Below, in pieces: positions 26,561 to 41,252 of a DNA stretch of 64,000 nucleotides (within the stretch, counting starts at the first letter, position 1; each line of letters starts with the position of its first letter). Source of the DNA: Rhodanobacteraceae bacterium (GTDB taxonomy: Bacteria; Pseudomonadota; Gammaproteobacteria; Xanthomonadales; Rhodanobacteraceae); assembly GCA_016790075.1 (NCBI GenBank), contig JAEUPP010000030.1, forward strand, positions 62,001 through 126,000, in the 5' to 3' direction. The position numbers and the translations under genes are program-made. The notes beneath the pieces are model-generated. The model ran no database searches and was not told the DNA's origin. It saw only the letters and a list, made by a program, of their open reading frames with translations.

Positions 26561-27262
26561 CTATAACCGTTCGTACAGACCGTGAACAACGCTTCCTTCG
26601 TGGTCAAAGCTGTCCTTGATGACATCAAAGAACAAACTGTCGCCCGACTGGTACTTGCGATACACCGCGTAAGAAACAAGATCTGCGAGTTGAATCAGAC
26701 GTGAAGCGCGAGAGTCGAGAAATACGGGGACTTCCGCATAATTCCTGGTTTTTCCCCAGGAGTGGCCCAGATACTTGAACTCGCGCGCAAGAGTCTGAAT
26801 TCGTGGTTCTGCAGCGGTTTTGTCAAACACCATCAAACCACGTTGCGTATCGTTGTGCTTGGCATGGAGGCGGGCCAGAAAAAGATCGAAGCGACTGCAT
26901 AGCTGCTCGAATGCGAACTGCACGGGGTCGATGCCCTGCATGGCGTTCTTGCGGACAACAACGGCAAACAGGCGCACGTTCCTCATACCGGAACTGACGA
27001 CACCGGAGTGTAGTGCATCGCAAACGGCATCCAGTCGAGTCTGCACGGAAAACCTCCGCCACCGATCACGTCCACCGCGCATCGGTGAGCCATGCAGTTC
27101 TATCGACTGGGGATCTTCAGGACAAAAGCGAGCGGCGATCTGGTTGAGATCTTGTTCGATCCAGTGCGTGCGCCGCTCAAACACGGATACGCCGGCAAGC
27201 ACGAAGAAATCATGAGATGCGTCGTCGGGGGAGCCGGATTCGTCGACGTACAGGAGGTGCAT
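26561..27262 (-). CDS. DUF3800 domain protein
   Basis: A 233-residue protein of the DUF3800 family, which has an RNase H-like fold by family knowledge. It starts MHLLYVDESGSPDD with the conserved Asp in YVDESG. It continues with VLAGVSVFERRTHW, the mid-protein MVFDKTAAE and the C-terminal SRASRLIQLADLVSYAVYR, which bears the other conserved Asp. DUF3800 genes are often found in mobile or defence contexts, but the role is unproven. It lies between the OleD-like gene and speA, just past the speA terminator, so it has its own promoter or depends on read-through. The ATG at 27262 begins exactly at the conserved N-terminus. Confidence 0.85.
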   Translation of the reverse strand: MHLLYVDESGSPDDASHDFFVLAGVSVFERRTHWIEQDLNQIAARFCPEDPQSIELHGSPMRGGRDRWRRFSVQTRLDAVCDALHSGVVSSGMRNVRLFAVVVRKNAMQGIDPVQFAFEQLCSRFDLFLARLHAKHNDTQRGLMVFDKTAAEPRIQTLAREFKYLGHSWGKTRNYAEVPVFLDSRASRLIQLADLVSYAVYRKYQSGDSLFFDVIKDSFDHEGSVVHGLYERL

Positions 27263-27280
27263 CGAGCAGTTCTCGGAACT

Positions 27281-27312
27281 GAAAACAAAGCAGGCCGCAC
27301 GTAGCGGCCTGC
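27281..27312 (-). terminator. Rho-independent terminator of speA
   Basis: On the minus strand a perfect 9-bp stem GCAGGCCGC-TACGT-GCGGCCTGC (27312-27290) is followed by TTTGTTTTC (27289-27281). Position, 154 bases past the speA stop and 28 bases before the DUF3800 start, fits termination of the speA transcript. Confidence 0.88.
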
Positions 27313-27465
27313 TGAAAAGGGAGAGCCAAGTGAGAAGCTTCTCAACGCAACGCGAAAGACGATGCTCTTGACCCTTCGTGCAACATAACAATGCTCTGTC
27401 GGCAAGTCAACAATCGCCAGAGAATCAGAGTTTTACAGCAGATGAGGGTGGGTGGGCATGGTTCC

Positions 27466-31613: not shown

Positions 31614-32390
31614 CTATGGTGTGCAGGTGACTCCGGCGATCGCGGTGACGCGTTCTAGCGCCAGCGTGCCCGAAGCGGTGAACAATGGATCGGTAGAGGT
31701 CCAGGCCACGCTGCCGGTATTGCATCCGGTGAAGGTAAAGGTCAGCGTACCCCAGGGCGGATTGGTGATCTGTGCGGGATCGAAGTTCGGCGGGAAGCGA
31801 CCGCCGCGGCTCTTGACCGCCTGCATCTCGATGCGGTTGTTCACCAGCTGACCAACACCGAGTATCCATACCTGGTTGCCGTTCCCGTCAAACGTGAACC
31901 AGAACGCGGTAACCGTCGTGTCATTGACCTTTTCGAGCTGGAAGCCGTGGCCGCTCTGGGCCGGATTGAACCAGTTGCCGCTGACCGCATTGCCGATGGA
32001 GAAGTTCGATCCACCGCCCTGCACGATGATCTTGCCCGCCATGCCGTTGCCGCCGGGCCCGCCGTGGGCGCTGCAGTAATAGCCGATCTCTCCCGGGGTG
32101 TTGAAGGTCAGTGTCTGCGACCATTCGCCCGAGCTCGGCTGGCCGCCGCCGGGATTGGCTGCGCTGGCGCAGTTATTGGAGCAGCGGAATGAGTCGTTGT
32201 CGGCGACTACATTGTGGAAACCGCTAATGTTCCGGAAAGTCACCGTATCGCCTGCCTGGATCGTCAGGTTGGCGGGCGAATAGCGCAGACCGCCAGAGCC
32301 GACCAAGACAACGTGGTTGGCCGCCGTGGCCAGAGTGGAAGCAAGCAGCAGGCAAATGCCTGCGAGCCCGCGAAGAAAATGCCGATACAT
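31614..32390 (-). CDS. Secreted cupredoxin fused to a Xanthomonadales beta domain
   Basis: A 258-residue exported protein. A signal peptide (about 1-24) precedes a plastocyanin-like domain (about 25-130) with a complete type-1 copper site: the first His in SGFHNVVAD, then Cys, His and Met in YYCSAHGGPGGNGMAG. The remainder (about 135-258) is a beta-rich module with GNWFNPAQSGHGFQLEKV, FWFTFDGNGNQVWILGVG and RFPPNFDPAQ, a module I recall as frequent in secreted Xanthomonadales proteins but of unknown role. The copper domain is a paralogue of the protein at 39792-40190. It is convergent with the AEC gene and encoded on the opposite strand to the electron-transfer cluster. Confidence 0.88.
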   Translation of the reverse strand: MYRHFLRGLAGICLLLASTLATAANHVVLVGSGGLRYSPANLTIQAGDTVTFRNISGFHNVVADNDSFRCSNNCASAANPGGGQPSSGEWSQTLTFNTPGEIGYYCSAHGGPGGNGMAGKIIVQGGGSNFSIGNAVSGNWFNPAQSGHGFQLEKVNDTTVTAFWFTFDGNGNQVWILGVGQLVNNRIEMQAVKSRGGRFPPNFDPAQITNPPWGTLTFTFTGCNTGSVAWTSTDPLFTASGTLALERVTAIAGVTCTP

Positions 32391-32554
32391 GCAGGGCCTC
32401 CGTAGCAAATCACCACGCGAATGCGCGGTCCGTAGGCGATGAGTGCAGCAGGCGGGCGAAATGGTTGTCGCCGCAGGTCTGAACCTGCGCCAGCCGGGTG
32501 GTGCCGCGGCTGCGCTGCGCATGTCCGCAGGTGGTCACGCCCCTGCCGGTTGCT

Positions 32555-33277
32555 TCAGAAACTCCAGATCAGGGTCGTCACCCAGCGGGTGTGGTCGCGC
32601 GCGCCGGTGTTGTAGCGCAGCGCATTCGGCGACGACCAGAGCACAGAGGTGTAAAGGTAAACATCACCGAGGCCGTAGCTCAGGCCGGCGCTGGCATAGC
32701 GGTAGTTAAGGCCGGCCACATCCAGATGTGCGTAACCGAAACCGGCGTTCGCTGCGAGGCGGCCCTGCAGGGGTTGCTGATAGCTGAGTTCGGCTGTTGC
32801 CGCCCGGCCTTTTTTTGTGGCCACTCGATAGCTAAACAGGCCGGGTGTGTCGGCTGACAGCGCAAGATTCAGGCGCCAGCGCCCGCGCCAGCCTATGGCG
32901 GCGGTCAGGTCTGTATAACTCAGCTCGTCACGCCAGACATTCCAGGGCGACTCGTAGTGCAGAACCCCGATTTTTGCCGACCAGTCATCATCGAACTGCC
33001 AGCGACGATCAGCGTACAGGGTGATTTGCGCCCCCGACGACTGAAACGGCGGACGCTCCTGGGTTGCGCCAATGCCGATGCTCCAGTCTCTGCCGCGATA
33101 GTGCAGGTCGGCCAGCCAGGCGGGTTGCCCCGAGCTCAGGCTAACCCCGCGATAGATATTGTCAGTACCGTAACCGACGGCACCACCCCAGTCCTGCGCG
33201 CCTGCTCCGCCCGCTACGAGGACGAGGCCGGCCAGCAGGGCAGTGCGGCGAATTGCGTCGGGGTAAGGGCCTGCCAT
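32555..33277 (-). CDS. TIGR02001-like outer-membrane barrel protein
   Basis: A 240-residue exported protein. After the signal peptide (ending AGGAGAQ) comes WGGAVGYGTDNIYRGVSLSS, the N-terminal signature of TIGR02001/TorF putative porins. Alternating strands follow and the C-terminus is WVTTLIWSF, ending in Phe as expected for Bam-dependent barrels. The function of the family is unknown. I chose the ATG at 33277; a GTG at 33310 is possible. It is divergent from the sigma-factor gene that heads the electron-transfer operon, separated by 164 bases that must hold both promoters. Confidence 0.78.
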   Translation of the reverse strand: MAGPYPDAIRRTALLAGLVLVAGGAGAQDWGGAVGYGTDNIYRGVSLSSGQPAWLADLHYRGRDWSIGIGATQERPPFQSSGAQITLYADRRWQFDDDWSAKIGVLHYESPWNVWRDELSYTDLTAAIGWRGRWRLNLALSADTPGLFSYRVATKKGRAATAELSYQQPLQGRLAANAGFGYAHLDVAGLNYRYASAGLSYGLGDVYLYTSVLWSSPNALRYNTGARDHTRWVTTLIWSF

Positions 33278-33441
33278 GGCGCAGAATCTGCCTGAATTGT
33301 CGGTGATCACGCGAACTTACATGGTGAAAAGTGGCAGATTTGCGGCCAGGTTCACGCCCGCATCTGCTTTTTACCCCCGACCGCGCAACCTTTCATCGTC
33401 GGACGGGCACTCAAGGTCTGACAGATGACGATCTGGTGCCG

Positions 33442-34077
33442 ATGAAATCTATCATTGACGACAGCGAAGCGGGCAATGCACCTGCCGCGACGGAGGCCGA
33501 AGGCGACGCGCTTGAGCAGCGCTTGCTGGCGGCGGTCGGCCGTGGCGACCGCGTCGCGTTCGAGCGGCTGTATCTGCGCCAGCACGCGCTGCTTGCCCGT
33601 TTTATCGCGCGGCACACGGCGCGGCGCGATTTGGTCGACGAGATCATCAACGACGCGTTCTGGGTGGTCTGGTGCAAGGCCGCGGAGTTTCGCGGCGACT
33701 CCAAGGTCGGCACCTGGATTATTGGCATCACCTACCGCTGCATGCTCAAGGCGCTGCGGCAGAACGTGCCGGTGGCCAATGCCGATGCGGATGAACGGCT
33801 GGCTGCAGCCGGCGCCGATACCGGTGAGACCGAGCAACGCGAACTCAACGACTGGGTGCGCCGCGGTCTGGCCCTGCTGTCGCCGGATCAGCGCATGACC
33901 ATGGAACTTGCCTACTACCTCGGCCAGTCCTGCGAGGAGATTGCGTCCATCATGAATTGTGCAACCGGCACGGTGAAGGCGCGCATGTTTCACGCCCGGT
34001 TGCGGTTGCGCAACTCGTTGCCCGGGCTAGGCGGCGACGATGGCGCCGCAGCCACTTCAGTACGGAATTCCCCATGA
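33442..34077 (+). CDS. ECF-type RNA polymerase sigma factor
   Basis: A 211-residue sigma factor. Region 2 is FERLYLRQHALLARFIARHT and DEIINDAFWVVWCKAAEFRG (about 40-85), and region 4 is ELAYYLGQSCEEIASIMNCA then TGTVKARMFHARLRLR (about 160-200). The first ~30 residues are acidic and variable. The ATG at 33442 is preferred because homology starts shortly after. Its stop overlaps the anti-sigma factor ATG (ATGA), the standard sigma/anti-sigma arrangement. It most likely directs transcription of the downstream electron-transfer genes and itself. Confidence 0.92.
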   Translation: MKSIIDDSEAGNAPAATEAEGDALEQRLLAAVGRGDRVAFERLYLRQHALLARFIARHTARRDLVDEIINDAFWVVWCKAAEFRGDSKVGTWIIGITYRCMLKALRQNVPVANADADERLAAAGADTGETEQRELNDWVRRGLALLSPDQRMTMELAYYLGQSCEEIASIMNCATGTVKARMFHARLRLRNSLPGLGGDDGAAATSVRNSP

Positions 34078-34757
34078 ACGACGAACCGAATGCCCACTGC
34101 CGGACCTGGGATCTGATCCCCTGGGTCGTGAATGGCACCGCGCCGCCGGCACAGCGCGAGCGCGTTGAGCAGCACCTGCGCGATTGTGCCGATTGCCGCC
34201 AGGAATTTGCCTTGCAGCAGCAGTTTCATGCGGGTCTGCAGAATGACTCAGCGGCGGTGCACGATCCGCGGCCGGCGCTGCAGCGTCTGCTGGCGCGGCT
34301 TGATGCGGATCTGCCGGCAACAGCAAGCACGGCTCCCGTGCGGCGGCGTAGCGGGGCAGCGCGCTGGACACCGTGGCTCGCCGCGGCGGTCGTGGTCCAG
34401 GCGATAGGGCTGGCCTTGCTCGGCGGTGTGATGCTGGGCCGGCCCGATACCCGCATGCCCCCGGCGGGCGAGTCGGGTTATCGCACCTTGAGCAGCGAAG
34501 GCAAGACGGCCGCGGCTTCAATCCGCCTCGTCCTGGCACCGGACACCACGCTCACTCGCCTGCGTGGCCTGCTTGGCCAGACCCAGCTACGCATTGTCGA
34601 AAGCACGGCCGACAATGCGGCGTTCGGCCTTGCGCCCCAGGACACAGCCCTGGCGGGCAATACCGACTTCGTGCGTGATGCGATCGCGCGTCTGCGCAGC
34701 GAGCCCGACGTGGTTCTGGCCGAGCCCATTACCGGCGCAGCCGGACCGGTGTACTGA
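34074..34757 (+). CDS. Zinc-finger anti-sigma factor with inhibitor-like C-terminal domain
   Basis: A 227-residue membrane protein. The cytoplasmic N-terminus has a zf-HC2/ZAS motif, VEQHLRDCADCRQEF (His, Cys, Cys at about residues 33-40), that binds the cognate sigma factor. One transmembrane helix (about 100-120, WLAAAVVVQAIGLALLGGVML) leads to a ~100-residue periplasmic domain ending in AIARLRSEPDVVLAEP. That domain resembles the I9-type propeptide/inhibitor fold found at the front of subtilases, and the next gene encodes a subtilase. This suggests the protease controls sigma release; the link is inferred from sequence style and adjacency. Confidence 0.85.
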   Translation: MNDEPNAHCRTWDLIPWVVNGTAPPAQRERVEQHLRDCADCRQEFALQQQFHAGLQNDSAAVHDPRPALQRLLARLDADLPATASTAPVRRRSGAARWTPWLAAAVVVQAIGLALLGGVMLGRPDTRMPPAGESGYRTLSSEGKTAAASIRLVLAPDTTLTRLRGLLGQTQLRIVESTADNAAFGLAPQDTALAGNTDFVRDAIARLRSEPDVVLAEPITGAAGPVY

Positions 34758-34761
34758 CGCC

Positions 34762-36099
34762 ATGGCAGCGGCACGGGTCTGGCGTCTTGCCGGGGCTTGC
34801 GTGCTCGGGCTGTGCGCACTCAGTGCCGTCGCGGGGACGCGTGCGGTCCCGGCGCCTGACTGGGCAGCAGGTTATGACGCGAGTCAGATGATCGTCGTTG
34901 CGGTCGCCAACAAGCCCGACCCGCAGCCCGGTGCCGGCGCGACGCCTCGTGGCTATGACACCCTGCCAGACTATGCCGGCGGCGATCGTGGCATAGCCCT
35001 GGCGAAACGGCTGTCCGCCGACTATGCCTTGCACGAGCTTTCGGCGTGGGTCATAGAGCCGTTGCGCCTGCGCTGCATGGTGTTCGCGTTGCCACCGGCG
35101 AGTGATCGCGCCGAGTTGCTGGCCCGGCTGCAGCGTGACAAGCGGGTGCGTATCGCGCAGCCGCTGCAGGAATTCAACACCTTTGGCGCAACCGTCGCGG
35201 GGGCAAACCCGGCTTCGGCACAAGCTCCACCCAAGGCTGCTTACAACGATCCCTACCTCGGCCTGCAGCACAATTTCGCCGCCATCGCAGCGGCCGGTGC
35301 GCAGCGCGCAACGCTGGGCAGTGGTGTGCGCATTGCGCTCATTGATACCGGGGTCGATGCGGCACATCCCGATCTGCATGGTCGCATTGCCGAGCAACGT
35401 GACTTTGTTGGCTCCGGGACCAGCAGCGCCGAACGTCATGGCACCGAAGTCGCTGGGGTCATTTCCGCGGTCGCCAACAACAAGCTCGGCATAGTCGGCG
35501 TCGCACCGGCAGCACAGTTGCTGGCTTATCGCGCCTGCTGGGCTCTGCCGCCACCGGCCAGCGGTGCGCGCTGCAATTCCTACACGCTCGCGCTCGCGCT
35601 AGGCGCAGCACTGGCCTCGGACGCGCGCATCATCAACCTGAGCCTGGGCGGGCCGGCCGACCCTCTGCTGGAGCAGCTCGTGGCCGAAGCGATAGCACGT
35701 GGCGTGCTGGTCGTTGGTGCGGTGCCGCCGGATCGAAGGCTCGACGGTTTTCCAGCCGTAGTACCCGGGGTGGTTGCGGTCGACGCTGCCGAACAGACGC
35801 CATCAGACGCGCGAGTACTGCGCGCGCCGGGCCGCGACATACTGACGCTGGAACCCGGCGGGCATTTCGACTACGCCTCGGGCAGCTCGCTCGCAACGGC
35901 GCAGGTAAGCGGAGCGTTAGCCCTGCTGCTCGAACTCAAGCCCAGGGAGTCAGCCGCTGTGCTCACGACGCTGCTGCTGGACAGCCAGCACGGCAAGGCA
36001 GCGATTGATATCTGCCAGGCTGTTGCGGCCCTGCGCGTTGCATCACCACCCGTATGCGACGGCGACAGCGCCGTGCCCGCCACCGGAAAAGGAGCTTGA
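34762..36099 (+). CDS. S8 family serine peptidase (subtilase)
   Basis: A 445-residue exported protease. A signal peptide (about 1-24) and a propeptide-like region (about 60-150, ending RIAQPLQEFNTFG) precede the catalytic domain. The triad is visible: Asp in ALIDTGVDAAHPDL, His in ERHGTEVAGVIS and Ser in SGSSLATAQVSG; the usual GTSMA is here GSSLA. The oxyanion Asn segment is INLSLGG. It starts four bases after the anti-sigma factor stop. Placed between regulator and cytochrome genes, it may cleave the anti-sigma factor or mature envelope proteins. Confidence 0.9.
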   Translation: MAAARVWRLAGACVLGLCALSAVAGTRAVPAPDWAAGYDASQMIVVAVANKPDPQPGAGATPRGYDTLPDYAGGDRGIALAKRLSADYALHELSAWVIEPLRLRCMVFALPPASDRAELLARLQRDKRVRIAQPLQEFNTFGATVAGANPASAQAPPKAAYNDPYLGLQHNFAAIAAAGAQRATLGSGVRIALIDTGVDAAHPDLHGRIAEQRDFVGSGTSSAERHGTEVAGVISAVANNKLGIVGVAPAAQLLAYRACWALPPPASGARCNSYTLALALGAALASDARIINLSLGGPADPLLEQLVAEAIARGVLVVGAVPPDRRLDGFPAVVPGVVAVDAAEQTPSDARVLRAPGRDILTLEPGGHFDYASGSSLATAQVSGALALLLELKPRESAAVLTTLLLDSQHGKAAIDICQAVAALRVASPPVCDGDSAVPATGKGA

Positions 36100-36101
36100 G
36101 C

Positions 36102-37163
36102 ATGCCTAGTCGCACGGTCGGGCTCGCAGGGACGTGGGTGCGCCGCGCCGCGCTGGTGTGCATCGTTATCGTCGCGCCGGTTACGGCTCAGCAGACACGC
36201 GAACAGCTCGCCCAGCGTTTGCCAGCTGACTTCTCCGGCGCCCAGGCCGAGCGCGACACGCGCCAGTTTCTTGCCGCGCCGGGATTTGCCCAGGCACAGG
36301 TGGCTACGAATCCCCGGGCGGCTGATGCGACACCGGTGGGTGAGAGAGTCTGCGTAGCCTGTCACCAGCTCGAAAGCGAGCACTTCACGCACACCCTGCA
36401 TGCGCTAGGCCTCTATGCGGCGGCCAAGTCCGACCCGACGATTCCGGTCTGCGAAACCTGCCATGGCGCCGGTTCGGCGCATGCGAAAAACCCGGCTGGT
36501 GCCGGTCTGATCATCGGCTATACGCGCAGCTCGGCGACGCCGGTCGCGGAGCAGACAGGGATTTGCCTTGGCTGCCACCAGGGCGGGGCGCGTGAGCACT
36601 GGGCCGGCTCGATACACCAGCGCAACGACCTGTCCTGCAGCGACTGCCATAACCCGATGGCGAAATTCTCCGCCGACGGGCTGCTCGCGCGGCGCTCGAT
36701 CAACGACACCTGTGCGCAGTGCCATAACGATGTGCGCCAGCAGTTCGGCCGCCGCTCGCACATGCCGTTGAATGAGGGCCAGATGAGCTGCGTCGACTGT
36801 CACAACCCGCACGGTTCCCTGACCACGCCGCTGCTCAAGACCACGACCGTCAACGAAACCTGCTACCAGTGCCATGCCGAAAAGCGAGGGCCCTTCCTGT
36901 TCGAGCATGCGCCCGTGCGGGAGAGCTGCCTCAACTGCCACACGCCACATGGCTCAAACCAGCACGCGTTGCTCGTCGCCCCCATGCCGTTCCTGTGCCA
37001 GCAATGCCACAGTCAGCTTGGTCATCCCAACGATCTGCAGACCCCGGCGTCGCTGGCCAGCGGTGCGCATCCGGACGAGCGCCTGATTGGCCGCGCCTGT
37101 CTGACCTGTCATGCCCAGGTACACGGTTCCAACGCACCCTCCGGTCCGAAATTTCACGAGTAA
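36102..37163 (+). CDS. Decaheme c-type cytochrome, MtrA/PioA/DmsE family
   Basis: A 353-residue periplasmic cytochrome with a signal peptide (about 1-29). I count ten CXXCH haem-binding motifs in order: CVACH, CETCH, CLGCH, CSDCH, CAQCH, CVDCH, CYQCH, CLNCH, CQQCH and CLTCH. Ten haems, this length and an adjacent MtrB-like barrel define the MtrA/DmsE/PioA family, which forms a haem wire inside an outer-membrane barrel and carries electrons between periplasm and exterior. The ATG at 36102 follows AGGAG and overlaps no upstream gene (2-base gap). Maturation needs the Ccm system encoded elsewhere. Confidence 0.95.
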   Translation: MPSRTVGLAGTWVRRAALVCIVIVAPVTAQQTREQLAQRLPADFSGAQAERDTRQFLAAPGFAQAQVATNPRAADATPVGERVCVACHQLESEHFTHTLHALGLYAAAKSDPTIPVCETCHGAGSAHAKNPAGAGLIIGYTRSSATPVAEQTGICLGCHQGGAREHWAGSIHQRNDLSCSDCHNPMAKFSADGLLARRSINDTCAQCHNDVRQQFGRRSHMPLNEGQMSCVDCHNPHGSLTTPLLKTTTVNETCYQCHAEKRGPFLFEHAPVRESCLNCHTPHGSNQHALLVAPMPFLCQQCHSQLGHPNDLQTPASLASGAHPDERLIGRACLTCHAQVHGSNAPSGPKFHE

Positions 37164-37178
37164 GGCAGGAGAACGCTG

Positions 37179-39734
37179 ATGCCCGCACTGCGTTACGTTC
37201 GTGCCAGCTTGCCCCTCGCGCTGTTGCTGGTCCTGCCGGCGGCGACGAAAGCTGATAGTGGTCGCGGTGTCGACGTCGCTTTCGACAACGCACTGCTGCA
37301 GGGGCGTGCGGCTGCCGGCAGCTCTGGCGACCCGCGCGGCACGAGCTGGTTGCGGCCGGGTCAGCGGCGCTCGCCGGCCGGCCTGCTCTACGTTTGCCCG
37401 CTGCAGCCACCGAGCCTTGCCGACCTGGCCGGCTGGGAATACGCAGCACATCTGCAGCTCGGCTGGACAGGCGCGTTCGGTGATGATGGCAATGCGCTCT
37501 GGAACCGCTATGTGCGCTGGGACAGCGGCCTGGTGCTGGGCCTGCTGGAGGTCGCGCTGCGCCGGCCCGAAGACGGCAGCTACGCGAGTCTGCGGGCCAG
37601 CCGCATCAGCAGCGACAACGCGTTTTTCGATGCGGCGTTTGGCCGCGCCGGCAGCTACAAGGTGCAGGCCTTCCTGCGCGAACTGCCGAACGGGATCAGC
37701 GATTCGGCGCGGCCTATCTGGAGCGGCATCGGCAGCAATGTGCTGACCCTGCTACCCGAACTCGCGCCAGGCGCGAGCAGCAGCGCTGAGGTCGCTGCGG
37801 TCGTAGCCGGAGCTTCGCCGCAGCAGCTACAGGTCGTACGCAGCAAGAGCGGACTGGGTCTCGATGCCTGGCTGACGCCGCGCTGGATTGCACACGCCAA
37901 GATCAGCGAGGAGCAGCGCAGCGGCGCGCGACCGTTCGGTGGAGCTTTTTTCTACAATTTTCTTTTTCCAGGAAACGCCGGCGTGCTCGAAACGCTGCGG
38001 CCGGTCGAGGACAGCACGATTGCGCTGGAAGCGGGCCTGCGCTACGCCGGTGAACGCTGGCGTGCCGATTTCGCTTACGACGCCTCGTTCTATCGCGATC
38101 GTTACCGGCGCCTGCGCTTTGAAAGTCCCTTCGCGCTGTCGCCCACGCGGCCGGGCGCGACCTCCGCACCCGTCTACCAGGGCCAGTTCGCGCTCGAACC
38201 GGACAACGACTACCACCATGTCCGCGCCGGCCTCACGCGGCGCCTGCCCTGGAATGGCGAATTCCATGTCACCGCCGCGGCCGGCCGCATGAGTCAGGAT
38301 GACGGCCTGATTGCACCTATCGATTGCAGCGGTACTTTCGGCGTCGATATCGACGGTAGTGGCGTGCCGAGTGCGGCAAACCCTCTCCTGCACAACTGTG
38401 CCGACTGGAACACGCCGGCCGCGCTGTCGCGCGACAGCGCCGATCTGCGCATCGACACCTATTCGTTTGACAGTCGCCTGGTGCTGCAACCGCTGCCGGC
38501 ATTGCAGGTGCGCGGCGGCGTGCGCTTCCATCGCGAGGACTACCGCAACGCCTATCTCGCCTATAACCCGATTACCGGTGACTACGGCTATATCACTGAG
38601 AACGGTGCGCAAGCCAGCATACAGGCCGGCGCACTCGGCACCTGGAACCCGCTGACGGCGGCCTCAGCCATCACACGTGTACGGAGTATTCCGTTTGACC
38701 TGCAGACTCAAGGCGCGAACCTTGGCGCGGATTGGCGCCTGGGCGAGCGGCGTTCACTGGGTCTGCAGCTCGACACGCAGCGCGACGAGCCCAGCAACCG
38801 CGAGCGCCGCCGTGTCGACAAAGACAGCCTGAAGCTGAACTATGTCGATCGCAGCATCGACTGGCTCACTTTGCGGGCGAACTACACCGGCTTCAAGCAG
38901 CAGGGCGACCGTTATGTGCCCAATCCCTACGACTTTGCCTATTCCTCCAGCTTGCCGGGCTTCGTCGCGCCGGCCGACGGTGTCCCTGCCTTTACGGTCG
39001 ATGCCCTGCGCAAATACGACCTTGCCGACCGGCGCGAGCACAAGCTCGATTTCAGCGCGACGATTGCATTGGCCGATACGGCGAACCTCAGCGCCGGTGT
39101 GCGCGGTGACTGGAACGACTACGGCGCCGAGATTGGCCGTCAGGCCTATGATCGCAGCGGCGTGAATCTGCAATGGGAATGGCAGCCGTCGCCGGCGACG
39201 CAGGCCAGTGTCTATGTTGCCGCCGACCGTGCACGGCTGGTGTTGGCAAACGTAGCCGATGTCGAGTTCGGCCCCGACGGCAGTCTCGGCGGTCCCGACT
39301 ATCCTGACAGTGCGCGCTGGTGGGTATTCGACAAGCAGCGCAATCGCAGTGCCGGCATACGTATCGACCACGACTTCGGCCGCTTTCGTCTGGATGCGGG
39401 CTGGAACCTCGTCGACGCGCGCGGCATTACCGCGTATCGCTTTGCTTCGCCGGCCGCGCTGGCCTATTTCGCGGATGGGCTGGCTGGCGTTCGCGAAGGG
39501 CGTTTTCCGGCCATGCGCTACCGCGTCGACAGCGTCAACCTGGGGATCAGCTTGCCTCTAACGCCGCGCTTCTCGCTGCGCGTGTTTGATCTGTTCGAGC
39601 GTGGCCGCGTCGACGACTGGCACTACCTGGGCCTTGAAGCGGCCCAGGTCATCGACCACCGCGTCTACAGCGTCGGCGCTCCGCGTGGTTACGCGGCCAA
39701 CCTGATAGGCCTGCTGCTTGATGTTCGGCTGTGA
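37179..39734 (+). CDS. MtrB/PioB-family outer-membrane beta-barrel
   Basis: An 851-residue exported protein, the right size for the 26-28-strand MtrB/PioB barrel that sheathes the decaheme cytochrome. Evidence: signal peptide (about 1-25); LGWTGAFGDDGNALWNRYVRW-like start (here GWTGAFGDDG, NRYVRWDSGL), typical of the family; many alternating strands with Arg/Tyr turns (RFHREDYRNAYLAYNPITGD, LNYVDRSIDWLTLRANYTGF); and a C-terminal strand ending LIGLLLDVRL. The Shewanella-type N-terminal CXXC is absent; there is one Cys near residue 72. It starts 15 bases after the cytochrome gene, with AGGAG upstream. Confidence 0.9.
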   Translation: MPALRYVRASLPLALLLVLPAATKADSGRGVDVAFDNALLQGRAAAGSSGDPRGTSWLRPGQRRSPAGLLYVCPLQPPSLADLAGWEYAAHLQLGWTGAFGDDGNALWNRYVRWDSGLVLGLLEVALRRPEDGSYASLRASRISSDNAFFDAAFGRAGSYKVQAFLRELPNGISDSARPIWSGIGSNVLTLLPELAPGASSSAEVAAVVAGASPQQLQVVRSKSGLGLDAWLTPRWIAHAKISEEQRSGARPFGGAFFYNFLFPGNAGVLETLRPVEDSTIALEAGLRYAGERWRADFAYDASFYRDRYRRLRFESPFALSPTRPGATSAPVYQGQFALEPDNDYHHVRAGLTRRLPWNGEFHVTAAAGRMSQDDGLIAPIDCSGTFGVDIDGSGVPSAANPLLHNCADWNTPAALSRDSADLRIDTYSFDSRLVLQPLPALQVRGGVRFHREDYRNAYLAYNPITGDYGYITENGAQASIQAGALGTWNPLTAASAITRVRSIPFDLQTQGANLGADWRLGERRSLGLQLDTQRDEPSNRERRRVDKDSLKLNYVDRSIDWLTLRANYTGFKQQGDRYVPNPYDFAYSSSLPGFVAPADGVPAFTVDALRKYDLADRREHKLDFSATIALADTANLSAGVRGDWNDYGAEIGRQAYDRSGVNLQWEWQPSPATQASVYVAADRARLVLANVADVEFGPDGSLGGPDYPDSARWWVFDKQRNRSAGIRIDHDFGRFRLDAGWNLVDARGITAYRFASPAALAYFADGLAGVREGRFPAMRYRVDSVNLGISLPLTPRFSLRVFDLFERGRVDDWHYLGLEAAQVIDHRVYSVGAPRGYAANLIGLLLDVRL

Positions 39735-39791
39735 CGTGATGGCGCGATTCGTAAGGTAGTACTTGCCTGTCAACAGCAAAAGGAGAGGTTT

Positions 39792-40190
39792 GTGGAATTC
39801 AAGAAAGTTCTGATGGGTCCGGCTTTGCTGCTGCCGCTTGCGGCCGGTGCGGCCAATCATGAAGTTCTCGTTGGCCAGGGCGGCAATGCTTACGTGCCGG
39901 CGACGCTGACCATTGCCGCGGGGGATACGGTCACGTTCCGTCAGGTTGGAGGTTTCCACAATGTGGCTTCCCAGCCGGGAGCCGTCACGGCCTTTCGCTG
40001 TGGCCCGAATGGGTGCGATGGGGTTGGCGGTGGTAATGGCGAGCCTGGTGGCGGCACCTGGCAGCAGACCGTGACCTTCCCGAATGCAGGTACGGCCAAT
40101 TACCTGTGCGACGTGCATGGCCAGTCCATGAGCGGCACCATCATCGTGAATCCCGTGCCGGTGACCTTGCAATCGTTCGATGTCGACTGA
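39792..40190 (+). CDS. Plastocyanin-like cupredoxin
   Basis: A 132-residue small blue-copper protein of the periplasm. A signal peptide ends near AGAA (about residue 20). The copper ligands are present: His in GGFHNVAS, then Cys, His and Met in YLCDVHGQSMSG. It is an electron carrier, and its place between the barrel and the cytochrome c4-like gene suggests it shuttles electrons to or from the decaheme cytochrome. The start is GTG at 39792 behind a strong AGGAGAGG. It is a paralogue of the copper domain at 31614-32390 but has no extra C-terminal module. Confidence 0.92.
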   Translation: MEFKKVLMGPALLLPLAAGAANHEVLVGQGGNAYVPATLTIAAGDTVTFRQVGGFHNVASQPGAVTAFRCGPNGCDGVGGGNGEPGGGTWQQTVTFPNAGTANYLCDVHGQSMSGTIIVNPVPVTLQSFDVD

Positions 40191-40235
40191 AGCCCTATGC
40201 GCCGGGCGGAGTCGTCAGCTGCGGGGAGCTCCCGA

Positions 40236-40895
40236 ATGAAACGCCTTTATGCGATCGCGCTGCTGCTGGCTTCACCGTTTGCGGCGGCAGGCGAATTCGT
40301 CGATTTGCGCGATGCGCCGGCAGTGGGCGGGGACGCCGCCGCCGGTTCGGCCAAGGTCATGGTCTGCGTCGCCTGCCATGGGCCGTCGGGCAATGCAGTG
40401 GTGCCGGCGTTCCCGGCACTGGCCGGGCAGCATGCGGGCTATCTTTATCAAAGCTTGGCGGGTTTCCGGCGTCGCGCCGACCCGGCTTCGCCGATGACCG
40501 CTCAGGTGCAGACACTTTCCGACCAGGATCTGCGCGACATCGCAGCCTATTTTGCAGCGCAGCGGCGTACCGCGCCGATTGCCACGGCCACTGCCAATGC
40601 TCCCGGCGCTCGCCTGTTCCGAGATGGTGATCCAGTACGCGGCATCGTGCCCTGCCAGGGTTGCCATGGTCTGGATGCACAGGGACATCCGCAGCGTATG
40701 CAAGCCGCGCGCTATGACTACTATCCGGCGCTTGCGGGGCAGCAGTCCGACTATCTCGTTGCCAGGCTGCGCCACTACCGCGACAGCGCGCTGGCCGATA
40801 CGAGCAATGCCCGTATCATGCAGGGCATTGCACATAACCTCGACGACACGGCGATTGTCGACCTCGCCGCTTGGCTTGCGACAACGCCGCGCTGA
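40236..40895 (+). CDS. Diheme cytochrome c4-like protein
   Basis: A 219-residue exported cytochrome with a signal peptide (about 1-19) and two class-I c-type domains. Haem motifs are CVACHG (about residue 45) and CQGCHG (about 140), each followed by the conserved PALAGQ segment (FPALAGQHAGYLYQSL; YPALAGQQSDYLVARL) and Met ligands further on (SPMTAQV; ARIMQGIA). Cytochrome c4 proteins pass electrons to terminal oxidases. In this operon it would join the envelope conduit to the respiratory chain. The ATG at 40236 follows GGGGAG. Confidence 0.93.
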   Translation: MKRLYAIALLLASPFAAAGEFVDLRDAPAVGGDAAAGSAKVMVCVACHGPSGNAVVPAFPALAGQHAGYLYQSLAGFRRRADPASPMTAQVQTLSDQDLRDIAAYFAAQRRTAPIATATANAPGARLFRDGDPVRGIVPCQGCHGLDAQGHPQRMQAARYDYYPALAGQQSDYLVARLRHYRDSALADTSNARIMQGIAHNLDDTAIVDLAAWLATTPR

Positions 40896-40916
40896 TTGTC
40901 CACCCGGAGACTAGCC

Positions 40917-41252
40917 ATGAAGACCCCAGCCAATGCTCCTTCCGAGTCCCACGCCGTGCTTTCGCGCCGCCGTTTTCTCGCTACCGTAGCCGTTGCAGGG
41001 GCCGCGTTCGCGCTGCCAGCTGCGGCCGACCTGGCACCGTTGCCGGAAACTGATCCGACGGCGCAGGCCCTTGGCTACAAGGCCGACGGCAGCCAGGTCG
41101 ATGCGGCCAAATTCCCCAAGCACACGCCGCAGCAGCAGTGCGCCAACTGCAATTTCTACCAGGGGACTGCTGCCGTTGGCCCTTGTCAGTTGTTTCCAGG
41201 CAAGTCGGTTACTGCCAAGGGCTGGTGTTCGGCTTACGTGGCCAAGGCCTGA
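40917..41252 (+). CDS. High-potential iron-sulfur protein (HiPIP)
   Basis: A 111-residue periplasmic [4Fe-4S] electron carrier. It carries a twin-arginine signal (SRRRFLATVAVAGAAFAL, about residues 16-33) so it is folded before export. The mature part has the HiPIP cysteine pattern: CANC, then C in VGPCQLFPG, then C in KGWCSAY. PioC of Rhodopseudomonas is such a protein and works with PioAB. It begins 21 bases after the cytochrome c4-like gene and is the last gene of the operon. Its stop is nine bases from the end of a convergent gene. Confidence 0.95.
   Translation: MKTPANAPSESHAVLSRRRFLATVAVAGAAFALPAAADLAPLPETDPTAQALGYKADGSQVDAAKFPKHTPQQQCANCNFYQGTAAVGPCQLFPGKSVTAKGWCSAYVAKA

Follow-up and report, generated by a model that had tools for sequence, protein, structure and literature searches.

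A predicted decahaem-barrel electron conduit with high-potential carriers, and its candidate sigma factor regulon, in a bacterium close to Tahibacter

In a 64,000-nucleotide stretch of DNA (hereafter the window) from a Rhodanobacteraceae bacterium (assembly GCA_016790075.1, contig JAEUPP010000030.1, positions 62,001 to 126,000 of the forward strand), we describe a run of genes in which an extracytoplasmic function (ECF) sigma factor is followed by a decahaem c-type cytochrome, an MtrB/PioB-type barrel and several electron carriers. We read this run as a conduit through the outer membrane, placed under ECF control, that connects to high-potential carriers and an oxidase and probably serves electron uptake, and give this reading a probability of roughly 0.6. 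Wires of the porin-cytochrome kind are familiar mainly from organisms that reduce metals, from phototrophs and from specialised iron oxidisers; the window-type conduit has its own three-gene core, to which three unrelated kinds of carrier are added in different loci. A bacterium near Tahibacter may exchange electrons with its surroundings in this way, most likely by uptake.

The run consists of eight co-directional genes on the + strand (33442-41252), the conduit and carrier genes forming its 3' part. In order, they encode an ECF sigma factor (33442-34077, the ATG being taken from the sequence; Sigma70_r2 and Sigma70_r4 Pfam matches, TIGR02937 above cut-off), an anti-sigma factor (34074-34757; zf-HC2 PF13490, E 1.4e-7, with one hydrophobic segment by eye), an S8 subtilase (34762-36099; PF00082, E 1.8e-27, with an apparent signal peptide by eye), the decahaem cytochrome (36102-37163, 353 amino acids), the barrel (37179-39734, 851 amino acids), a plastocyanin-like cupredoxin with a GTG start (39792-40190, 132 amino acids), a dihaem cytochrome c4 (40236-40895, 219 amino acids) and a high-potential iron-sulfur protein (HiPIP; 40917-41252, 111 amino acids). 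The sigma and anti-sigma genes overlap at ATGA, 4 nucleotides separate the anti-sigma and subtilase genes, and only 2 lie between the subtilase stop and the decahaem ATG. An earlier sequence-only reading had proposed an operon of the last five genes starting at 36102. Profile and structure-sequence matches bear out each of these genes, their order, their strand and that start; what the reading missed was the head of the run, whose sigma, anti-sigma and subtilase genes begin 2.7 kb upstream, and the common promoter-like motif described below. The identical eight-gene order occurs in three Tahibacter loci (L067, L068, L085) and in one from an unclassified Lysobacteraceae (L065). Tahibacter also provides the nearest named matches to the host, whose genome spans 5.62 Mb in 83 contigs and is 95.65% complete: the barrel is 71-74% identical to those of T. 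aquaticus and T. caeni, and the decahaem 87% identical to that of T. aquaticus.

The decahaem carries ten CxxCH motifs, the first haem at residue 84, and all ten are invariant across 18 aligned sequences. It scores 258.7 bits against TIGR03508 (cut-off 192.2) and matches MtrA of structure 6r2q (E 1.8e-61); its ten haem motifs and above-cut-off score place it in the MtrA/PioA/MtoA/DmsE superfamily. Its own AlphaFold model was poor (predicted local distance difference test, pLDDT, 48.9) and was not used. The barrel matches PF11854 (MtrB_PioB) with 279 bits and falls under the curated cut-off of TIGR03509 (176.4 bits against 240). Its AlphaFold model, built from 40 aligned sequences, reached a pLDDT of 85.8 and shows 26 strands of at least 10 residues. 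Foldseek returned MtrB (6r2q_B) as the first match to this model, with E 2e-43 and a template modelling score of 0.89 by target length, the second match having E 5.4e-12. The PF11854 match and the predicted 26-strand barrel together assign the protein to the MtrB/PioB family.

To place the decahaem, a tree of 66 rows was built, and a quick tree of 112 rows was also made. Comparators came from other genomes and one Photobacterium plasmid (L063) and were assigned labels according to adjacent genes, which were large ten-haem ones (by motif count), molybdopterin genes (four confirmed), nine-haem partners or CymA (confirmed for L184 and L202, by motif count for L201). Verified PioA and MtoA were not among them, and the tree program flagged long branches among the comparators. 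The 66-row tree sets the window decahaem clade on a 100/100 branch whose length is 1.36 changes per column, separate from the DmsE-context, MtrC-context and CymA-adjacent decahaems. The same branch includes L142, L216 and L217, the last two being from another class of the phylum, probably Alphaproteobacteria, and carrying a monohaem cytochrome c, a decahaem (58% identical) and a barrel. Identity of the window decahaem is 60-87% to 26 in-clade representatives and 34-46% to MtrC-context, DmsA-context, nine-haem-partner and CymA-adjacent forms. CymA-adjacent decahaems of the same bacterial family (L201, L202), together with L203, branch elsewhere. In our survey of 197 genomes of this family, the decahaem superfamily was found above cut-off in 69, of which at least three have another kind, that of the CymA-adjacent clade.

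The NCBIfam family name, "DmsE family decaheme", would suggest instead that the protein is a DmsE-like part of an extracellular reductase, and clustering with DmsE was the outcome that the sequence-only reading had named as fatal to its proposal. No such clustering is seen: the context-labelled DmsEFAB decahaems, among them the four with confirmed molybdopterin neighbours, lie elsewhere in the tree, and no molybdopterin oxidoreductase occurs among the scanned neighbours of the window gene. We consider a DmsE-like role extremely improbable, and DmsE identity itself is not supported, given a position outside the DmsE clade and neighbours that include neither DmsA nor DmsB.

Cytochrome c4, cupredoxins, azurin and HiPIP are high-potential carriers, and the proposal that the conduit is accompanied by carriers of this kind holds, each of the three in the operon being clear by profile or structure matches. 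The cupredoxin matches PF00127 (E 7e-8) and plastocyanin 1pla (E 1.2e-5). The dihaem protein matches 6q2u (E 2.9e-31) and 1etp (E 6.6e-28), as well as 1h1o, which we take to be the c4-type cytochrome of Acidithiobacillus ferrooxidans. The HiPIP matches PF01355 (E 1.9e-24) and 1hlq (E 9.6e-21) and has a twin-arginine translocation (Tat) signal scoring above cut-off with TIGR01409.

Relatives were sought by scanning named genome contigs with the barrel alignment, and the best 80 of 133 matches gave 79 loci. By their titles, 71 belong to Lysobacterales (= Xanthomonadales), one to a Paraburkholderia metagenome-assembled genome (MAG), one to a Nevskiaceae MAG and six to unclassified MAGs; the genera include Tahibacter, Dokdonella, Rhodanobacter, Dyella, Frateuria, Luteibacter, Fulvimonas, Rudaea, Pseudoxanthomonas, Luteimonas, Stenotrophomonas and Lysobacter. 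A gene for cytochrome c4 comes after the barrel in 75 of the 79 loci, one of them L090, where a contig end leaves a single haem motif. Of the four remaining loci, L115 and L135 stop at a contig end with the barrel, and the distant relatives L138 and L142 are truly without a nearby c4. Because of this recurrence, the five-gene set is not a chance assembly. Counting genes that end within 1.6 kb after a barrel, 10 of the 79 loci have a plastocyanin-like gene, 8 an azurin gene and 11 a HiPIP gene (in L081 after the second barrel), and 24 have at least one of the three. The core of the lineage is decahaem-barrel-c4, with cupredoxin and HiPIP as extras in some loci and azurin in others. The best clue to the chemistry of the periplasmic side is that three unrelated kinds of one-electron carrier occupy the same position. 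Two loci, L081 and L082, contain a tandem double copy of decahaem-barrel-c4. Cytochrome c biogenesis-like genes (CcmF-like and thioredoxin-like, by eye) follow the conduit genes in L070 (13002-15017, +) and L072 (14484-16758, +).

Partners of the better-known conduits were not detected. The sequence-only reading saw no outer-surface decahaem, and in agreement with it TIGR03507, the sole MtrC/OmcA model tried, has no match in the host genome and none above cut-off in any of the 197 family genomes. The NapC/NirT-family quinol partner (CymA) is likewise without a PF03264 match in the host; strong NapC-family matches (E 3.5e-31 or better) occur in 28 of the 197 genomes and are absent from 53 of the 69 decahaem genomes. 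Given these missing matches, MtrCAB and CymA-linked uptake were discarded as descriptions of the host system, as was RuBisCO-based autotrophy, RuBisCO having no match in the genome. Four haem-copper family genes are present. Two of their products (773 and 782 amino acids) look, by size, like quinol nitric-oxide reductases. Another of the genes sits in a cbb3-looking operon with mono- and dihaem neighbours and an adjoining azurin-like gene (L219, contig C50, 7286-7756, -; 189 bits to the azurin profile).

The second line of evidence is regulatory. A promoter-like motif, first spotted by eye in the regions upstream of sigma and decahaem genes and then tested by pattern and weight matrices, takes the form CAACCTTT-N12-GGYACYCA. 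Fifty-six nucleotides before the sigma ATG, the window contains the candidate ECF promoter CAACCTTT-N12-GGCACTCA (33386-33413, +), in which GGCACTCA begins 15 bases after CAACC and which shows zero mismatches to CAACCWTTN12GGYACYCA; this site was among those that trained the first matrix. A second candidate (32440-32467, -), with one mismatch, precedes a plastocyanin-like gene (31614-32390, -) and scores 20.3 with a matrix that excludes it. A sigma-70 promoter scan of the region found none, against 1.8 expected, and a blind count of exact bipartite words common to the sigma- and decahaem-gene upstream regions found no word in more than 2 of the 12 loci, each of 20 shuffles giving 1.

Eighteen sigma-gene sites align at the motif and form the training set of the first matrix, which finds 44 sites scoring at least 14 in 1.51 Mb (18 belong to the training set), compared with one in shuffles of half the loci. 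Because this matrix was trained on pattern-picked sigma-gene sites, only the other sites and a second, ten-site matrix built from Tahibacter, Dokdonella and other loci count as tests; the shuffles kept nothing beyond local base composition, and the loci of the Rhodanobacter type are related among themselves. With the ten-site matrix, 33 sites (at most 10 of them training sites) score at least 20 in 3.02 million positions, against none in shuffled DNA, and sites upstream of the decahaem score 20.9-28.5 in L127, L128, L134, L135, L136 and L140, 22.6 in L074 and 14.8 in L109. In five of these loci (L127, L128, L134, L136, L140) the decahaem start precedes the sigma gene by 5.2-5.6 kb, so the common motif is more than a single promoter serving a single operon. 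Of 18 decahaem copies with a sigma gene in view, 6 have an upstream site scoring at least 14 with the first matrix, as do 2 of the 56 without one; 3 of 77 copies were too near a stretch end for scoring and four loci gave no scorable copy. Among the 12 copies that have a sigma gene in view and lack such a site, six carry that gene upstream in the same run (L065, L067, L068, L069, L073, L085). As for the two hits with no sigma gene in view, the L135 stretch ends at a contig end, and L074 appears, from the sequence of its site and the spacing between site and decahaem gene, to be the same as genome G044, which has its subtilase on another contig.

At the genome scale and allowing one mismatch, the host has three sites, before this operon, before the gene at 31614-32390 and before its 82% identical paralogue on contig C81, against one for a reversed-pattern control. 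Ninety-three family genomes with a close subtilase contain 322 such sites (3.46 each; control 26 sites, 0.28 each), 89 genomes without a subtilase contain 22 (0.25 each; control 18 sites, 0.20 each) and 15 with a weak subtilase match only contain five, the division between close and weak matches having been set after the E-values had been seen. A rank test on these counts (2e-30) overstates independence, because the genomes are related. The motif also precedes plastocyanin-like genes in Tahibacter loci and in further genomes (L067/L268, L085, L267, L269, L247, L248). In L244 a candidate site is followed by a 456-amino-acid open reading frame (ORF) with, by eye, a CSLREA-like start.

The ECF sigma factor is predicted to recognise this motif, and the subtilase may take part in its control. 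Among the 51 family genomes that have both genes, 25 place the subtilase no more than 10 kb from the decahaem. The Fervidolysin prodomain model gave below-cut-off matches (E 0.016 and 0.044) in two of three anti-sigma proteins scanned whole, the window's own having no match, and matched neither of two subtilases scanned. By hhalign, the anti-sigma factor aligned to the S8 protein with E 0.0085 and a probability of 4.7%, and cut pieces with E 3.2e-4 and 39%. These comparisons hint at a weak likeness between the anti-sigma ectodomain and a subtilase prodomain.

We infer the assembly, the direction of flow, the donor and the oxidase link as follows. The decahaem would sit inside the 26-strand barrel, and single electrons would cross the outer membrane through it. 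On the periplasmic side they would pass to cytochrome c4, the plastocyanin-like protein and HiPIP, and from there to a haem-copper oxidase. Flow would be inward, from an external reductant to oxygen, which is the more likely direction because MtrC and CymA were not found and the carriers are of oxidase-side types; since no RuBisCO was found, the likely role would be an auxiliary one in energy or redox supply. The ECF sigma factor, held by its membrane anti-sigma and linked to the subtilase, would turn on the conduit operon and the two plastocyanin-like genes together, the anti-sigma ectodomain perhaps being bound or cut by the subtilase. A bolder version, possible and held only tentatively, is that of an ECF regulon that wires the cell envelope: its own-clade wire and cupredoxins, joined in relatives by cytochrome b561 and surface-sugar genes, would bring electrons from extracellular donors to c4, cupredoxin, HiPIP and oxidase in bacteria that are not known to oxidise iron, with the subtilase and a prodomain-mimicking anti-sigma ectodomain as sensor.

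Several observations weigh against an ECF-controlled conduit for uptake. The direction of electron flow is not readable from sequence. A dihaem cytochrome scoring weakly as c4 (34-45 bits) also occurs in MtrCAB-type loci (L182, L185, L063), beside a four-haem gene in two of the three; PMC8805035 names PdsA in such loci and indicates that MtrCAB can be made bidirectional. No plastocyanin-like, azurin or HiPIP gene lies nearby in 55 of the 79 barrel loci. PMC11366258 reports that a Rhodanobacter strain isolated from an Fe(II)-oxidising culture could not oxidise Fe(II) alone. Finally, a bc1 complex reducing c4 could push electrons outward. In that event the conduit would run from quinol through bc1 to c4 (or cupredoxin or HiPIP), and on through the decahaem to a high-potential external acceptor, for instance Mn(IV), humics, peroxide or a redox mediator. 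The dihaem cytochromes that accompany MtrCAB-type loci fit such a scheme, as do the view that MtrAB cores are reversible (PMC8805035) and the CymA- and MtrB-like proteins reported in Rhodanobacter after feammox incubation (PMC11366258). However, the host has no MtrC or NapC/CymA match, the carriers beside the conduit are of the oxidase-side kind and an azurin gene adjoins the cbb3-looking operon, and we regard outward flow as unlikely.

Other counterpoints concern the regulation. Of the 12 loci where a sigma gene is in view and lies outside an unbroken run with the decahaem gene, six have a decahaem site scoring at least 14 and six (L098, L099, L100, L120, L129, L141), which are the remaining misses of the count above, lack one, and with two mismatches allowed the host has 10 sites against 5 for the control. 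The fetched stretch holds no sigma gene for 56 of the 74 scored decahaem copies. A subtilase is also present in 57 of 128 genomes without a decahaem above cut-off; the module thus resembles a more general regulator that acquired the conduit within part of this lineage. Relatives also carry the motif before a sugar operon and before cytochrome b561. Cytochrome b561 lies under a candidate site in L264 and L266 (Pfam) and in L263 and L253 (by eye), and FdtA/WxcM-like and acetyltransferase-like genes do so in Rhodanobacter and Dyella loci, FdtA being Pfam-confirmed only in L265; the FdtA-like gene is divergent from the decahaem gene in L134, L136 and L127 and follows c4 in L120, L109 and L129. Such targets, and the decahaem-free subtilase genomes, would suit an envelope or redox-stress module in which the ECF factor senses oxidant or copper stress in the periplasm and conduit, cupredoxins, b561 and surface sugars serve protection instead of energy conservation. 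We find this improbable: a ten-haem wire with three carriers would be costly for protection, on argument only, and the conduit keeps its c4 in nearly all barrel loci whereas most decahaem copies have no sigma gene in their stretch. Uptake through an ECF-controlled conduit remains our preferred reading.

Among neighbouring genes, the divergent plastocyanin-like protein (31614-32390, -) matches PF00127 (E 6.1e-12) and has an extra C-terminal stretch. Between the two candidate promoters lies a putative porin of the TorF family (32555-33310, -; TIGR02001, E 1.5e-9, below cut-off), whose part in the system is uncertain; a similar match also adjoins the sigma gene in L109. Farther upstream, an Rfam DUF3800-VI RNA (27323-27374, -; 38.5 bits) is found at the 5' end of an ORF (26561-27391, -) that resembles a DUF3800 protein by eye and sits in the 2 kb of the window with the lowest guanine-plus-cytosine content.

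The sequence-only reading had called the operon PioABC/MtoAB-like. A conduit of the PioAB/MtoAB type with HiPIP in its operon is indeed what is found, but membership in PioABC or MtoAB is not established, because the host has no NapC/CymA match, the decahaem has no long PioA extension, c4 takes the place of monohaem MtoD and the tree held no verified PioA or MtoA. The window system resembles PioABC of Rhodopseudomonas palustris TIE-1 in its decahaem within an MtrB-type barrel, its HiPIP gene and its lack of an outer-surface decahaem (PMC6831781, PMC5566968). PioA, with 500 residues and a long N-terminal part (PMC6831781), differs from the 353-residue window protein, which is without that part. 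Unlike the direct A-B-C order, cupredoxin and c4 genes stand between barrel and HiPIP in the window, where the run includes an ECF sigma gene and the host is without a RuBisCO match. MtoAB-CymA-MtoD of Sideroxydans lithotrophicus ES-1 likewise combines a decahaem and a barrel without MtrC, its MtoA having been detected in magnetite cultures only (PMC12016527); the window genome differs in having no NapC/CymA match and in its dihaem c4, which replaces monohaem MtoD. An MtrAB core is shared with Shewanella MtrCAB and with PdsA-CymA-MtrCAB of Vibrionaceae and Aeromonadaceae, and the PdsA type also has a dihaem shuttle (PMC8805035). The window system differs from these in having no MtrC or CymA match, and its decahaem is 34-43% identical to nine MtrC-context comparators, including L063 from Photobacterium.

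The rus pathway of Acidithiobacillus ferrooxidans uses the Cyc2 porin-cytochrome, unlike the MtrAB-type conduit of the window. The likeness lies in the carriers, a cupredoxin and a c4-type cytochrome (PMC10654088). Closest in taxonomy, MtoAB-like proteins were noted in Rhodanobacter, a genus among the window relatives, from an Fe(II)-oxidising, nitrate-reducing culture in PMC11366258, citing a 2021 paper; the accessible sections of that article give no account of operon anatomy, c4 core, carriers or ECF motif. The MtoAB-like pair in these relatives is already known in outline; in the open PubMed Central literature searched, including the parts of PMC12622760 and PMC8999054 covered, no paper on this operon turned up, nor any mention of a c4 core, an exchange of carriers, the ECF motif or an ECF sigma factor governing a conduit of this kind. 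Set beside these systems, the window operon is a well-conserved variant of the MtrAB/PioAB kind, and the regulon is its most testable new part: the predicted promoter names the regulon and offers a handle toward the signal, and hence toward the extracellular partner, beyond what genome reading alone can give.

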